A stretch of DNA of 64,000 nucleotides from Lucinisca nassula. Lineage: Eukaryota; Mollusca; Bivalvia; Lucinida; Lucinidae. This document shows positions 17,528 to 50,620 of this stretch, one piece after another; the first letter of the stretch is position 1; every line of letters begins with the position of its first letter. The stretch lies in NCBI GenBank assembly GCA_963580285.1, contig OY757021.1, forward strand, positions 92,801,221 through 92,865,220, written 5' to 3'. The notes under the pieces were generated by a model. That model was not told the DNA's origin and made no database searches. It saw only the letters and a program-made list of their open reading frames with translations. Both the position numbers and the translations under genes were made by a program.

Positions 17528-17667
17528 GGAGCGTGATAGCTCAGTGGTTAGTGCATTTGCCTCTGATGCTAGAGGTCCCGGGTTCGATCCCCGGCAGCGG
17601 CGATAAAATTTCGGTGACCGAACACGCTCCATTGGCATCATTTGCAGGGATGAAAGAAAGAAAGAAA

Positions 17668-18750: not shown

Positions 18751-20335
18751 TATACTACTCAAAGTTTGATAGGGATCACTTTTTTAATGCAAAATAATTT
18801 TTGGATGAATTAATCAGCTGAATCCAAATTTGATACATAATGATAGAAAAAGTATCCTTCACAAAACCTAGTGATTAATTTTGTCAACTGGTACTGCATT
18901 CAAGCGTGACAACAGCAAACGTCTTGGCACCCCCAAAATTTGCCGTAACACGAAGGGATTTGGACAACTGATTTTTCACAAATTTCCAAATTTGTTTAGA
19001 CAAACGTGCTTAATAACGTGTATGGCGTACAAGGGCATCAATTACAGTACGACATCGCTTGTGCATGCTCGTAATCCGAGTCTGTATCCGGTTTTGTGAA
19101 ATCAGCTTTCATTCAGCAACCAATGCATCTTTGAGCGCCTGTAAAGTCCTCGGATGCACAGGTCGGGCTGAAACAGCACTCTGTAGCATGTCCCGCGCAT
19201 GCTCAATCGGATTTAAGTGCGGCGACCGAGCAGGCCAGTCCATACGAACGATTGTCTCACGTTCCAGGTAGGAATCAGTGACGTTGGCAGGGTTGGGACG
19301 GGCATTATCATCCATCAGAATAAAGTCCGGACCGATAGCATCTGCATTTGGTCTCACAAATTCATCAAGAATCTCATTACAGTACCTCACTACCATTAAC
19401 GTTCCGTTTTCAACGACGTACAAGTCAGGTTTACCGTTCACGCTTATCCCAGCCCAAACCATGACTGACCCCTTTCCATAGCGATCATGCTCTGCCACAT
19501 TCAAGTCATCGAATCGCTGTTTAGACATTCGCCACACTAATTGACGATTATAAGTGAAGTCTAGATAGAATCTGGACCCCTCAGTAAACAGTACTGGCGT
19601 CAAGTCAAGAACCGTCCACCTGACGTGAGTTCTGACAAAGTCTAACCGGTCTAGCACGTGCTGTCTCGTCAACGGGACACGTACAGCAGGCCTCATGGCA
19701 TTAAGTCCGAACTTGTGGAGTCCGTTTCTGACAGTTTGTGTAGAAATTCGTACTCCAGTTCCGTTCATAAGCTCGTTATGCAAACGCGTAGCGTTCAGGA
19801 ACCGTTGACGTCGAGACTGAATCAACAAGAAACGGCCCTGACGTTGAGTTGTAGCCCTTTCTCGACCCCGCCGCGGCTGTGTGAAGGATTTCCTTGGGTA
19901 AGATGCCGACTCCACATTCGTGAAACCACGCTCTGAGACACATTCAGAATCCCAGCAACACGACGTTGAGAGACGCAAGATTCCAACATTCCGACTCAAC
20001 GATTCATTTCTTCGGGGCTCAGACGGTTTCTTAATTGTCCCCCTAGGCATTTTAGTGTTTCACAAATCAAATGAAGTCCTTTTTACGCTTGGTAAAGGAA
20101 CACTGACAAGTTTGATTGGTCTGTTGGAAAGCAGTGCTACGCAAGATTTTGGGGGTGCATGAATTCATTTGCGAATTGTGAGACGTGTACACTTTTATGA
20201 GTACTGAACTGCACACGAGTTTCTGCTTAAGATATTTATCAATATACCGAGTACAAATTCTGTCAAGAACTTATAAATTTTCTGTGCAAAATTTGGTACA
20301 TAAAAAGTGATCCCTATCAAACTTTGAGTAGTATA
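18751..20335 (-). mobile_element. Tc1-like transposon with terminal inverted repeats
   Basis: Inverted repeats of about 30 bp start CTACTCAAAGTTTGATAGGG at the left and mirror it at 20300-20335, flanked by TA. A transposase frame lies between (19109-20050, minus). Copy A of the surrounding tandem duplication has the uninterrupted site. Confidence 0.92.
19109..20050 (-). pseudogene. Tc1-like transposase, catalytically damaged
   Basis: A 313-residue frame covers most of a Tc1/mariner transposase. The N-terminus begins MPRGTIKK, then loses the expected helix-turn-helix wording over about residues 15-50, which looks like compensating frameshifts. The middle is well kept (RISTQTVRNGLHKFGLNAMR, GKGSVMVWAGISVNGK). 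The first catalytic Asp, expected in FTDESRF, reads FTEGSRF. The second is kept in LMDDNARP. The usual SPDLNPIEH reads SPHLNPIEH, which keeps the Glu. With the first Asp gone, the enzyme should be inactive. Confidence 0.88.
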
Positions 20336-23269: not shown

Positions 23270-23640
23270 CGAAAATGACTGCGGCTGCTATAAGTTCCCC
23301 ATAAGGGAAATAAATACGCCTTAAGGGGGTGGGGCTTCTCCTGCAAAAGTAGTTTCTCCCACAATGGAATCAATGATCCCAAAGGACAAGAAAATATAAT
23401 CTCCACTTTTATATAGTAAAGCTCGGGTTTGCAAGGGTAAACATTAATTTCCGTATTCATGCTCTGAGACACTAGATTGTGGGTACTCGATAGAATCGCC
23501 TCGTCGAGGCGTTTCTGTCGACTCCCCGCAATTTATGTTTTATGCAAAAAGGCAAATATTCCACTTTTTCTTTTTAAAATTTAATTTCTTTTTCTTTGGC
23601 CAAAAAAATGACAATGTATTTGTATAGGTGTGTTTCGAAA
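23270..23640. mobile_element. MITE family B copy
   Basis: The central hairpin (TAGATTGTGGGTACTCGATA facing the imperfect GTCGACTCCCCGCAATTTAT) is at 23470-23540, and the copy ends GGTGTGTTTCGAAAT. 'Gggtttgcaagggtaaacat' replaces the usual inner arm. Confidence 0.65.
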
Positions 23641-34403: not shown

Positions 34404-34911
34404 ATGTTTAGATCCGGGAAAGCTCCGCTAAGGATAGAGACTGGACGTTTTGAAAAGCTCCAGCTTCACGATAGACACTATTTTCACTGCTCAAATGCCA
34501 TGGAATCTGTGAACTTAATGAAGACTTAAGAGAGAAGTTATTCAATGCAATGCGAGTAAATGTTCCTGGATTTGACTACTTGTCTGAAACCTGCAATAAC
34601 ATATAACTTATTATAACAATAAATATGATTGTGGGCTTTAACATGTACAGACGTTTCAATAGTCTCAAATCTTAACCTGACGATTTTATCTCATAATTCT
34701 TTTAAGAGTGGTTCTGTATACTGGTTCTTAATGTATGAGGTTGGTGTGATTTGTTTTCATATTATGAATATGTGAGTTCAATGAATGAATGTATCTGTGT
34801 CTATGGTTAAGTTTATGTCCAATTTTGTGGTGCTTTTACCCGACTTTGAGGTGGAATGACATCTCAAGCCCTGCTCTCCAATGAAATCAATAGCTCCACT
34901 TTGCCTGGGCA

Positions 34912-34957
34912 GGGTCACTGATGAGGCCTTATTGGCCGAAACTAGTTAGTCTGGCCC
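34912..34957 (+). ncRNA. Type I hammerhead ribozyme, copy 1 of retrozyme A
   Basis: All core elements are visible in order: stem I strand GGGTCA, core CTGATGA, stem II GGCC with loop TTATT and GGCC, core GAA, stem III ACT with loop AGTT and AGT, cleavage base C at 34951, and the second stem I strand TGGCCC. Stem I pairs over 6 bp (one G-U), stem II over 4 bp, stem III over 3 bp. The predicted cut follows the GTC triplet, between 34951 and 34952. An open stem I with a very short stem III is the type I form known from metazoan retrozymes and Penelope-like elements. Activity is inferred from structure only. Confidence 0.88.
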
Positions 34958-35172
34958 AGAAAACATCTACACTCCATATTTTTCAGTTCTGTGGTGTATT
35001 CCTTGCTTCCAAAGGATAGCCCTGTTATAAAACATATTTAACTTCACTACAGCTGGTGTGTGGGAATTTGTGGCGGCGGTAAAACGTCTCTCTGCCCTAC
35101 ATCATAGTGTAGATTATATTTTCTTGTCCTTTGGAATCATTGATTCCATTGTGGAATTTTGAAAATATCTGA

Positions 35173-35218
35173 GGGTCACTGATGAGGCCTTATTGGCCGA
35201 AACTAGCTAGTCTGGCCC
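35173..35218 (+). ncRNA. Type I hammerhead ribozyme, copy 2 of retrozyme A
   Basis: This starts about 261 bp downstream of the first ribozyme, in the second tandem unit. It has the same 6-bp stem I, the CTGATGA core, the GGCC/GGCC stem II and the GAA core, with a stem III loop of AGCT instead of AGTT. The only difference is in a loop, where it does not break pairing. The GTC cleavage triplet is intact. Confidence 0.88.
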
Positions 35219-35409
35219 AGAAAACATGTACACTCCATATTTTTCAGTTCTGTGGTGTATTCCTTGATTCCAAAGGATAACCCTTTTATAGAACATATTA
35301 GACTCTCTAAGCGGTTTACAAGTACTCGTGTGCGGTCGGTTTCAGCTCTAGGTGGAAGCACCATGCAGCCCAATCTATTTCTCCAAGCCCCGATGGGTGG
35401 GGGCCCAAA

Positions 35410-35653: not shown

Positions 35654-36537
35654 GGGCGCCATTTTACTATTTATTCCCTATTTATAGAAATCCAAAATTC
35701 GAATTATGGATATCCATAATTATTTATGAATACCAATAATTATTTATGGCTATCCATAATTCGAATTATTGATATACATCATAGGAAATATGTATATCCA
35801 TAAATCGATCTGAAATATGGATATCCATAAATCGATCTGAATTATTGATATCCATAAATCGAATTATAGATGTCCATTATTCGATTTATGGATATCTATA
35901 ATTCGAATTATGGATATCCATTATTCGACTGATTTATGGATATCATTAATTCGAATTGTGGATGTACATAAATCTTATTATTGACATACCATAATTAGAT
36001 ATACAGATATCATTAATTCAGATCGATTAAAGGATATCCATTATTGGAAATATGGATATTATTAATTCGAATTATTGATATCCATAATTCTGTCCATTTC
36101 GATTTATAGATATCCATAATTTGTCTTTGAAAATAAATACAATAAATAATGACTGAAACCAAAGGCTTTTGCGTGGAATTGACGGATATCCATAATTCTA
36201 AATATGGATATCATTAATTCAGCCCGATTTATAGATATCCATAATTCGATTTATGGATATCCATAAATCAGCGAAATAGTTGATATCCATATTTTGATTT
36301 ATTGATATCCACAATTGGAATAATTCGAATTATGGATATCCATAAATCGATCTGAATTAATGTTAACAATAAATCGAATTATGGATATCCATAATTCGAT
36401 TTATGGATATATATAAATCTAATTATTGATGTCCATTATTCGGCTTGATTTACTGATATCCGTAATTTGAATTATGGATATCTATAAATCGAATTATGGA
36501 TATATATAAATATGGATTAAATAGTAAAATGGCACCC
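35654..36537. mobile_element. Foldback element made of palindromic satellite
   Basis: Ends GGGCGCCATTTTACTATTTA (left) and GGGTGCCATTTTACTATTTA (right, inverted), with TA on each side. The whole interior is an irregular array of variants of AATTATGGATATCCATAATT, itself a perfect palindrome, joined by TCGA-type spacers. No ORF. It lies in intron 2 and stops at the edge of the possible extended exon 2. Confidence 0.9.
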
Positions 36538-38124: not shown

Positions 38125-38628
38125 CCGCCCATCGGGGCTTGGAGAAATAGATTGGGCTGCATGGTGCTTCAACGCAGTGCTGAAACTTACCGCACGAGTA
38201 CTGGTAAACCGCTTAGAAGGGCTAATCCTGCCTAGGCAAAGTGTTTGACCCAAGGTTTAACGTCCCCATCAACACTGTAAAGGTTATTTTGGAGACTTTG
38301 CTTCCAATTTTGTGAGACTTTTACTCGACATTGAGATGAAACAACATCTCAATCCCTGCCGACCAATGAAACCAATAGGGTTTATAAGCATGGACGGTCC
38401 GACTCGCACCGCTTTGCCTGGGCAGGCTTAGATACTGTAAGCGGTTTACCAGTACCCGTGTGCGGGTCGGTTTCAGCTCTGCGTGAAAGCATCATGCAAC
38501 CCATCTATTTCTTCAAGCCCCGATGGGCGGGGGCCGAGGCAAAGTGGTGCGAATCAGACCGTCCATGCATATAAACCTTATTGGTTTCATTGGGCGGCAG
38601 GTCTTACGATGTCATTTCATCTCAATAT

Positions 38629-38632
<4 letters not shown>
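38125..38632 (+). mobile_element. SINE-1 split by another SINE-1
   Basis: The 5' part is 38125-38243 and resumes at 38537-38632. The copy ends where the GATA array begins, at ATCTCAATATCGATAG, so the microsatellite replaces the SINE's 3' end. Confidence 0.88.
38244..38536 (-). mobile_element. SINE-1, full length with 10-bp duplication
   Basis: 293 bp in reverse orientation, flanked by AGGCAAAGTG at 38234-38243 and 38537-38546. It sets the family ends: CGGCCCCCGCCCATCGGGGC at the 5' end and GACGTTAAACCTTGGGTCAAA at the 3' end. Confidence 0.93.
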
Positions 38633-39139
<507 letters not shown>

Positions 39140-39204
39140 CTGAGCGCATTTGGTTTATTTGGTAAGTTTGATCACGAATCTTACGTTCAAAGTACAATAC
39201 GCTT

Positions 39205-39545
39205 CTTTTGTGAAAACGCACCTATATAATTTTGACCCCCGTAAACCCCAAACTGGGGTTAACAGGTTAAACCCCAAAGTGGGGTTAACAGGTTATACAT
39301 TATTTATTTTTCTCATTTCTGTTCGAAAACATAGATTGTGACTACTTGTTCGAACCGCCTCTTGTTTGAACTGCCTCGGATAGGCGGTTACTTGTTAGAA
39401 CCACCTCGGCGAGGTGGTTCTTACGAGTACCCACAATCTTTGTTTCAGTTTAGCATAAGTATGTAAAATATCAGAATTTTATGTCTGAAAATTTTCATTT
39501 TTGGTGGTAAAATTTTCAATATATTTGAATAGGCGTATTTTCATA
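39205..39545. mobile_element. MITE family B, full length
   Basis: AACGCACCTATATAATTTTG at the left and TATTTGAATAGGCGTATTTTC at the right. The centre has the hairpin plus an extra partial repeat (39330-39445), and CCAAAGTGGGGTTAACAGGTT is duplicated nearby. Confidence 0.85.
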
Positions 39546-48462: not shown

Positions 48463-48561
48463 ATCTTGTGCACAAGATATTATCTTGTGCGCACAACTAA
48501 ATATCTTGTTCGCATAACACATTAAAATAAATTGAATGTCCCTTCCCGGGTTCCGTAGATC
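48455..48561. mobile_element. Half copy of the TACGGAACCC MITE
   Basis: Has repeated AAGATATTATCTTGTGC and ends TGTCCCTTCCCGGGTTCCGTAG, but lacks the other end. Confidence 0.75.
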
Positions 48562-49022
48562 CTTGAAAAAGTGTTGTTGTTTTTTTTATTGATTTTTGAA
48601 AATTAGCATTAAAAACACACACACAATAAAAAAAACCTCTTTTAAAACCTGACCAATTGATGTTTCACTGGCATAGGTTACCCATTACCTGCACTTCCGG
48701 TTTATGGGCAAAAAATAAGAATCTTCGCAAAATGACACTGGAAAGGGAAAATATGTTGGATTTAAAAAAAAAAAAAACACAAAGCATTCATGAACGGTGA
48801 TTAATTTCTTCTAAAAATTTCAACGGAATTTGACTAGCAGTCACGACGATGCAGCATATTGAAAATCACACTTGGATCATGTTTGGATTACTGCTGATTT
48901 ATCCCGCTTTTAGTAATCTAAGTTGAATTTTGCACCCCTTTCGAAAGCACGTGTCCCCTATTGAATAAAAATCAAAAATGAGTTCCTTTAAGAGCAATGA
49001 AAACATTCATAAGAAAGAAGAT

Positions 49023-49068
49023 GGGTCATACTACGTAGTTTCGGCTAATAAAGCCTCATCAGTGACCC
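49023..49068 (-). ncRNA. Type I hammerhead ribozyme, 3' copy of retrozyme B
   Basis: On the minus strand: stem I GGGTCA with TGACCC (6 perfect pairs), core CTGATGA, stem II GGCT-TTATT-AGCC (4 pairs), core GAA, stem III ACT-ACGT-AGT. The cleavage triplet is GTA, with the predicted cut between 49029 and 49028. Compared with the plus-strand family, stem II changed from GGCC/GGCC to GGCT/AGCC, a change that keeps pairing. Confidence 0.87.
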
Positions 49069-49405
49069 TGTAATGATCCGGCAAAGAAAGCCAGAGGAAA
49101 CATACTGCAATTTTGCGAAATTCAAATAGGCAGTCGATTCAAAGACTGATATAAATCAAAAAGGGGTCCAAATAATTAAAAACCTGTCAAGATTATGAGT
49201 CTAAACCAATAATTTATTTCTGAATTCTCAGAATATTCACGCTGATCTCAAAGGATCAAAAGTAAAATATAAACTGCACTATGGTTGATGTACGGGGAGA
49301 CGTTTTACGGCCGCCACACGGCACAACACCAGCTGCAGTGAAGGCAAATAAAAATCAAAAATGAGTTCCTTTAAGAGCAATGAAAACATTCATAAGAAAG
49401 AAGAT

Positions 49406-49451
49406 GGGTCATAATACGTAGTTTCGGCTAATAAAGCCTCATCAGTGACCC
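49406..49451 (-). ncRNA. Hammerhead ribozyme, 5' copy of retrozyme B, stem III damaged
   Basis: On the minus strand: GGGTCA, CTGATGA, stem II GGCT-TTATT-AGCC, GAA, then ACTACGTATT, cleavage base A and TGACCC. Stem I is a perfect 6-bp helix. The second pair of stem III is C opposite T, where the sister copy at 49023-49068 has C-G, so this copy is probably weaker. The cleavage triplet would be TTA. Confidence 0.8.
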
Positions 49452-49899
49452 TGTAATGATCCGGCAAAGAAAGACAGAGGAAACATACTGCAATTTTGCG
49501 AAATTCAAATAGGCAGTCGATTCAAAGACTGATATAAATCATAAAGGGGTCCAAATAATTAAAAACCTGTCTAGAATATGAGAATATGAAATTTGAATAA
49601 ACCAAACCTACGCAAAATTGGCTTTAGAATCGCCCAAAGGGAGACGTGTCAGTATCAATCCAAACATGACTCAAGTGTGATTTTCAATCAGCAGCATCTT
49701 CGTGACTCCTGGCCGGATTTTAAAGCGGATGTTAATCCCTGTACGTGCTAATCCAGTACCATTTTCCATTCCGATGTCATTTTACAAAGATTCATTTTTT
49801 TGGCATAAAAACCGGAAGTGAAGGGAATGAACAACATTTAGACAATCAAATTTGCCTGAAAAGGTAGCATTCTGACATATTGCTTCAATTTGTGTTTGT

Positions 49900-50620
49900 A
49901 AATCATCAGTTGGTAGAGTTATGAAAGGGGCCTCTTTGAAAATTGAACTACACCCCTATTTTTTTTTTTTTTAAATTCAATTTCCAAACTTCGATAAAAA
50001 AAAAAAACGTTTTCGAGGTATTTTTAAATTTCTGCGTTGTTTTTACACTATGCAACCTTCATTCCGAAGCATAAATGTTGAAATACGGCAAAAATGTCAA
50101 CTCATTAAATTTTTATGCGAAAAAATAACAAAGGGCTAGGGTCGATAAGGGGCATTTTTGGCCTCGATTTTTCAGAAAAATCAAAATTACATGTTTACTT
50201 AGGTTTATACATGTTAAAACAGAACACCATATAAAGTTTCAAGAAATGCTGTTAGAACGTCGGATCGTGCGCACGTATTGCTATGGTGACGTCACTAAGG
50301 AAGGTCGAAACGTCATTTTCCTGAAATTTTTAGTTATTTTGACATGTTTCCACGGAAAATTAAGTACCGCACCACTCCTCAACCAACATGAAAAATGTCG
50401 CAAAAGAAAGATAACGTCCAGTTCGTCTTATCACCAATGTTTGGTGTTGGTTGAGGGGTGGTGCGATTGTTAAAATTACAAGTAGAGACCCTTTGACAAC
50501 AGCCAAAAGCCTTGGTGAAACATACATTTTATCAACCTTTGAGGCACTTTTGACATGAATGAAGAATTTATTTCGCTTGTTTTCGTTAAAATAGTTTGTC
50601 ACGGCATTGAATTATATTTC
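49900..50620. other. Intergenic; short hairpin element at 50368-50466
   Basis: CGCACCACTCCTCAACCAAC faces its complement GTTGGTTGAGGGGTGGTGCG, 98 bp in all. AGGGCTAGGGTCGATAAGGG at 50137 recurs inverted at 54885. Confidence 0.6.

Follow-up and report, generated by a model that had tools for sequence, protein, structure and literature searches.

Does a short insertion with two hammerhead sequences belong to a mobile family, and by what route would its RNA return to the genome? This question was raised by a locus of the bivalve Lucinisca nassula, which we analysed within a stretch of 64,000 nucleotides of DNA (referred to as the window) and compared with copies elsewhere in the same genome. In a COX1 comparison, the three named hits with the lowest E values came from bivalves (Novaculina, Laternula and Ensis, 66-67%), with annelids and insects next (65-67%), and the closest hit of all, outside the named ones, reached 92%. 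An earlier note on this DNA had described a retrozyme-like insertion, a description supported by the genome-wide copies of what is a real mobile family. Judged by its sequence, the insertion is confirmed as a retrozyme, and families A and B, described below, are two new families of the metazoan non-LTR kind.

Hammerhead insertions in the window

The family A insertion was located at 34911..35299 on the plus strand and was composed of 1.49 units of a 261-bp repeat, with a 3' end reading ...GAACATATT at 35299. Its right limit had been placed at 35302 in the earlier note, and was shifted to 35299 by comparison with other genomic copies. The 5' junction was ambiguous over positions 34911-34914, where AGGG is common to the interrupted repeat and the insert. 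A direct repeat was found between 34911-35043 and 35172-35304, with 94% identity. As previously claimed, two complete type I hammerhead sequences were found 261 bp apart, with all elements present: A1 (34912..34957, plus strand), with a predicted cleavage after 34951, and A2 (35173..35218, plus strand), with a predicted cleavage after 35212 and a palindromic stem III 10-mer, ACTAGCTAGT. Each was characterized, from 5' to 3', by a 6-bp stem I (with one G.U pair), CTGATGA, a 4-bp stem II, GAA, a 3-bp stem III with a tetraloop, GTC, and the 3' strand of stem I; stems I, II and III paired in both copies, as had also been noted. The predicted monomer, from cut to cut, corresponded to 34952..35212 (plus strand; 261 nt; 40.6% G+C). 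It contained the family A copy of a domain common to families A, B and C (TTCACTACAGCTGGTG...GTGGCGGCGGTAAAACGTCTC; 35043..35099, plus strand), immediately downstream of the fixed insertion end described below. The unit had been said to contain no open reading frame, in agreement with the absence of any ATG frame of at least 40 aa wholly inside the insert. The longest such frames were two of 32 aa, and a 97-aa minus-strand frame at this place extended into the flank.

The insertion interrupted an interspersed repeat, the left and right parts of which were found at 34818..34914 and 35300..35405 (both on the plus strand), and 13 other copies of this repeat were extracted from the window. The earlier note had called this host a SINE; the repeat was indeed abundant and interspersed, and its identification as a SINE was not borne out, one copy having only a sub-threshold snoRNA match. 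At this locus the repeat read ...GGGCAGG, followed by the insert and then by AGA (or TTAGA by overlap), with no clear duplication. The Rfam scan gave no tRNA match in the A and B inserts. A 58-bp family A-like fragment without hammerhead was also present at 23359..23416 (minus strand), with 91% identity to 35097-35154. As judged by eye, its upstream flank matched that of L034, the site of an A array.

A second hammerhead element, missed by the earlier reader, was found on the minus strand. This family B insertion (48964..49582) comprised about 1.6 units of 383 bp, with a unit G+C content of 37.3%, a 3' end reading ...GATTTTTATT at 48964, and a longest ATG frame wholly within the insert of 36 aa. 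Of its two hammerhead sequences, B1 (49406..49451, minus strand) exhibited one stem III mismatch, and B2 (49023..49068, minus strand) was complete, with a GUA triplet and a predicted cleavage after 49029. The family B copy of the common domain (TTCACTGCAGCTGGTG...GCGGCCGTAAAACGTCTCC) was located at 49291..49342 on the minus strand. The whole element lay in the loop of an inverted-repeat structure at 48561..50018, whose arms aligned with a score of 195, versus 90 for the best of 100 base shuffles. This long, imperfect inverted repeat had a foldback-like appearance.

A2 and B2 differed at 6 of 46 bases. The changes consisted of a double change retaining a pair in stem II, the replacement of U.G by U-A in stem I, a swap from GC to CG after which the stem III loop was still palindromic, and a change of the triplet from GUC to GUA. 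When six changes were drawn at random 200,000 times, the pairs, the core and the triplet were retained in 0.13% of the draws, and the palindrome as well in 0.03%. At the sequence level, B is a second, diverged family, set off from A by structure-preserving changes.

The full type I descriptor matched three sites in the window (A1, A2 and 49067-49024 on the minus strand) and gave no match in 200 first-order Markov sequences of 64 kb. A hammerhead core pattern matched four sites, versus 0.33 expected in shuffles, two of them on the minus strand (49039-49062 and 49422-49445). A covariance-model search had been proposed in the earlier note, and the Rfam scores were near background: 21.0 and 19.8 bits for Hammerhead_3 (gathering score 48.5), with E values of 0.11 and 0.22. 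The A region scored 19.3 bits against Rfam RAGATH-1-hammerhead (E = 1.7), and the B region scored 20.7 bits against an unrelated bacterial Rfam family versus 20.3 bits against Hammerhead_3. At the gathering threshold, the only Rfam match in the window was a tRNA at 17537, with no hammerhead. The exact hammerhead pattern had no match in viral_contigs or in genome_contigs.

Among 135 A-type hammerhead copies (46-mers, excluding copies with indels or more than nine substitutions), all 13 pairs and the core were intact in 94, and a pair or the core was broken in 41. The tetraloop was palindromic in 132 copies and the 10-mer in 126; such palindromic stem III loops would allow pairing between hammerheads, as reported for amphibians. 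The hammerhead was not clearly more conserved than the remaining unit in these copies. We retained the hammerhead reading despite the near-background Rfam scores, since these are outweighed by the exact descriptor, the structure-preserving changes between A and B, and the 94 intact copies.

In nearest-neighbour folding of the isolated motif, in which tertiary contacts are omitted, the hammerhead fold represented 0.0003 to 0.05 of the ensemble. The flanking repeat sequence could compete with folding of A1, again with energies that omit tertiary contacts. The predicted circles were more stable than shuffled sequences (z = -2.7 for A and -2.9 for B; none of 100 shuffles was equally stable), and their paired fraction was not higher (0.59 versus 0.60 for A, and 0.60 versus 0.58 for B).

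Other features of the window included a Tc1-like transposase frame (PF01498) at 19109-20056 on the minus strand, with 1301 relatives at E values up to 1e-20; a palindromic AT-rich repeat near ATTTATGGATATCCATAATTC at 35680-36200, with a spacing often of 22 bp and at least 15 listed copies of 21 nt; and a long simple repeat at 38612-39221 on the minus strand, reading YLSI/CLSV in three frames.

Genomic copies, their ends and their sites

Families A and B were both repeated in their own genome (2.93 Gb, 696 contigs searched). The A query returned 5216 unconfirmed first-look candidates, 40 of which were scored and yielded at least 49 matches; for the B query, the corresponding numbers were 2492, 40 and at least 70. 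The first A sample consisted of 37 loci covering the 49 A matches and was selected for length. The second, obtained with a 128-nt query, consisted of 20 of the 26 places outside the first sample. The B sample (n = 22) combined 20 further stretches, the window B element and one element in L036. Unplaced A-like pieces (L022 minus and L030 minus) and pieces shorter than 150 nt were left out of the A counts, L036 plus was reassigned to family B, and L010 plus and L020 minus to family C. Loci L039-L045, which duplicate L046-L051, were counted once.

Family C (L010:524-1230, L020 on the minus strand, and L087-L096) was built of tandem units of about 277 bp and had the common domain and a corresponding 3' end. 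Its sample contained 10 loci, mostly chosen because they had two matching pieces of similar length. The CTGANGA core was absent from all 10 fetched loci, and cmscan of L010 400-1300, up to an E value of 5, detected no ribozyme family. The segment specific to C, which runs from gagttctgcttaagcc to ccgagtctgc, may harbour an undescribed self-cleaving motif.

The 3' end was fixed in all three families. In the A and B samples, its anchor was searched near the BLAST end. All 36 main arrays of the first A sample whose 3' end was covered by the fetched stretch shared this end, which was identical to GAACATATT in 30 and within 3 nt in 6. In the second A sample, the 13 copies with an end in view all stopped at GAACAT, including L073, which reached it after an internal loss, and 7 of the 20 continued into further units. 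The B copies ended at GATTTT-TA in 21 out of 22 cases (18 of them reading GATTTTTATT), L061 being shifted, and the nine C copies with an end in view all stopped at GAACTT, L090 running out of the stretch. Flanks differed between loci in B and in both A samples. In each of the three families, a few bases separated the 3' end from the downstream TTCACT(A/G), with which the common domain of about 55 nt begins. The family A 3' end lies 87 nt downstream of the predicted hammerhead cut, and therefore does not correspond to the end of a self-cleaved linear monomer. A hairpin common to the 3' tails of the three families was considered and rejected, as their folds disagreed. Pol III termination was also argued against as the cause of the fixed end, since a stop in each unit would forbid multi-unit copies.

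The 5' ends, in contrast to the fixed 3' ends, varied in phase, and insertions ranged from half a unit to six units. The shortest measured 131 nt (L079) and the longest with both ends seen 6.1 units (L022); L035 (7 units; 5' end out of view) and L025 (35 units; 3' end out of view) extended past the fetched stretch. The 5' ends were in excess close to the 3' edge of the common domain, within -15 to +5 nt of CATAGTG, an interval set after C had been seen: 8/36 (p = 0.007, in a set selected for length) and 3/15 (p = 0.11) in A, 4/22 (p = 0.03) in B, and 8/10 (p = 5e-8) in C, where the figure is biased by the hand-picked loci. In arrays of more than two units, the 5' phases were compatible with a uniform distribution (KS test: 19 A arrays, p = 0.68; 12 B arrays, p = 0.35).

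Insertion at a single site of the interspersed repeat was considered and dropped, since 6 of the 20 stretches of the second A sample touched the repeat, at several places, and B copies L050 and L063 lay, by eye, elsewhere in it. Ten A loci shared one site in the repeat as judged by eye, but the query carried about 20 nt of flank there. A composite of repeat and retrozyme was rejected because the 5' junctions differed among these ten loci.

Left and right flanks of A loci shared short words (mean match of 3.86 versus 3.16 permuted; 35 loci; reached by none of 500 permutations), as did those of the 25 loci outside the interspersed repeat (4.2 versus 3.24; none of 500). These matches measured 2 to 9 nt, mostly 3-5 nt, and often started with TT; at the window A locus, the match was 2 nt. 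Flank matches in B were weak, with 39 of 500 permutations reaching the observed value.

Variants within arrays and the proposed mechanism

Variants present in one insertion and in at most 5% elsewhere were considered private. Such variants occurred in all units of their insertion in 33 of 280 cases in A and in 37 of 86 in B. In 200 permutations of the units, this count averaged 1.1 in A (at most 9) and 1.4 in B (at most 10). In A, 237 of the 280 were found in one unit and 10 in some units only. At positions covered by at least three units, variants were present in all, some or one of the units in 17, 10 and 166 cases in A, and in 13, 0 and 26 cases in B. Divergence was lower within arrays than between them (0.024 versus 0.038 in A, and 0.007 versus 0.024 in B).

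The pattern of variants found in B is that expected if one circle was copied over several laps and mutations came later. One circle and later mutation explain the 237 one-unit variants of A, but not the 10 partly shared ones, which call for a further process, for example gene conversion or a mixed template. Units could also have become alike after insertion, by gene conversion or by tandem duplication.

Target-primed reverse transcription of a monomer circle from one site would account for the fixed 3' ends, the variable 5' ends and the shared private variants. We consider it probable that the element is a non-autonomous retrozyme whose RNA cuts itself, likely forms a 261-nt circle, and is copied by target-primed reverse transcription from one fixed internal point. 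The A RNA would cut itself at both hammerheads, and a host ligase would likely close the monomer into a 261-nt circle. A LINE or Penelope-like enzyme would be supplied in trans, and a T-rich nicked target would pair with the start point, which in A is ...CATATT|T. Synthesis would then proceed around the template for one or more laps and end at variable positions, somewhat more often at the 3' edge of the common domain, the putative binding site of the enzyme.

R2-type target-primed reverse transcription likewise combines a fixed 3' junction with variable 5' truncation and a domain close to the 3' end. The template of R2 is a linear RNA and its target a single rDNA site, whereas here copies exceed one lap and target sites vary.

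A wider scheme, which we advance only tentatively, combines rolling target-primed copying of a small RNA circle from a dedicated start with partial halting whenever the enzyme passes the domain that it binds. The hammerhead would then be an exchangeable circle-making module, and C would carry an unrecognised self-cleaving motif instead.

In the best-surviving alternative, read-through of a genomic array gives a multimeric transcript that remains uncut and serves as the template, the enzyme starting internally, immediately 5' of the common domain. This reading also yields a fixed 3' end with variable 5' ends, and the 10 partly shared A variants fit copying from a mixed array. We nevertheless regard it as unlikely, because B variants at positions covered by at least three units were present either in a single unit or in every unit, and because an enzyme needing the domain downstream of its start point would be expected to shorten the copies at each generation, the last unit having no domain after it.

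It is much less probable that the hammerhead is a relic devoid of catalytic activity and that the element moves like a plain SINE. The 41 broken A-type copies, the repetition of family C without the core in all fetched loci and the low predicted share of the hammerhead fold would fit such a relic. Conversely, 94 copies were intact, the rarity of random change sets that, like the six between A2 and B2, retain pairs, core and NUH triplet argues for retained structure, and insertions exceeding one unit require a multimer or a circle. Least credible of all are ordinary satellite repeats growing and moving by DNA recombination: long arrays exist (35 units in view in L025) and units are alike within arrays, but unequal exchange would not give three families a constant 3' boundary at unrelated sites, and short insertions of 131 to 208 nt carry the fixed 3' end too.

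Relation to known retrozymes

Metazoan non-LTR retrozymes, as described by Cervera and de la Pena (2020; PMC7229834), consist of units of 150-450 bp in tandem, with type I hammerheads, a G+C content below 50% and many dispersed copies. The elements described here resemble them in their intact type I hammerheads (A1, A2 and B2), tandem units of 261 and 383 bp, G+C contents of 40.6% and 37.3%, and dispersed copies, and the mussel units of about 350-390 bp in the same text are close in size to family B. Single partial units also occur here, beside dimers to multimers. Target-site duplications of metazoan retrozymes, when present, exceed 4 bp (PMC7229834), whereas the flank matches reported here were mostly 3-5 nt. 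The fixed internal 3' end, the adjoining common domain, the array-private variants and the hammerhead-less sibling family are not described in the sections of that paper that were consulted.

Plant LTR retrozymes also carry hammerhead pairs that release circles, proposed as retrotransposition intermediates (PMC4918200, as summarised in PMC7229834). They differ by their type III hammerheads, LTRs and circles of 600-800 nt (PMC7229834), versus type I hammerheads and predicted circles of 261 or 383 nt here. Amphibian hammerhead satellites share a short stem III, a palindromic tetraloop and tandem units, with one or two stem III pairs instead of three (PMC7229834, PMC6155905). Penelope-like elements carry a minimal hammerhead without helix III in the pseudo-LTR of a coding element, whereas here helix III has three pairs (A1, A2 and B2) and the longest ATG frames encode 32 aa (A) and 36 aa (B).

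For the return of hammerhead circles to animal genomes, PMC7229834 proposes that a primed circle is copied into tandem cDNA; this requires priming, whether from target DNA or from a small RNA, and recognition by a reverse transcriptase borrowed for the purpose. The fixed end point, the adjoining common domain and the shared private variants provide a testable model of this step, with named nucleotides, and family C is a place to look for another ribozyme.
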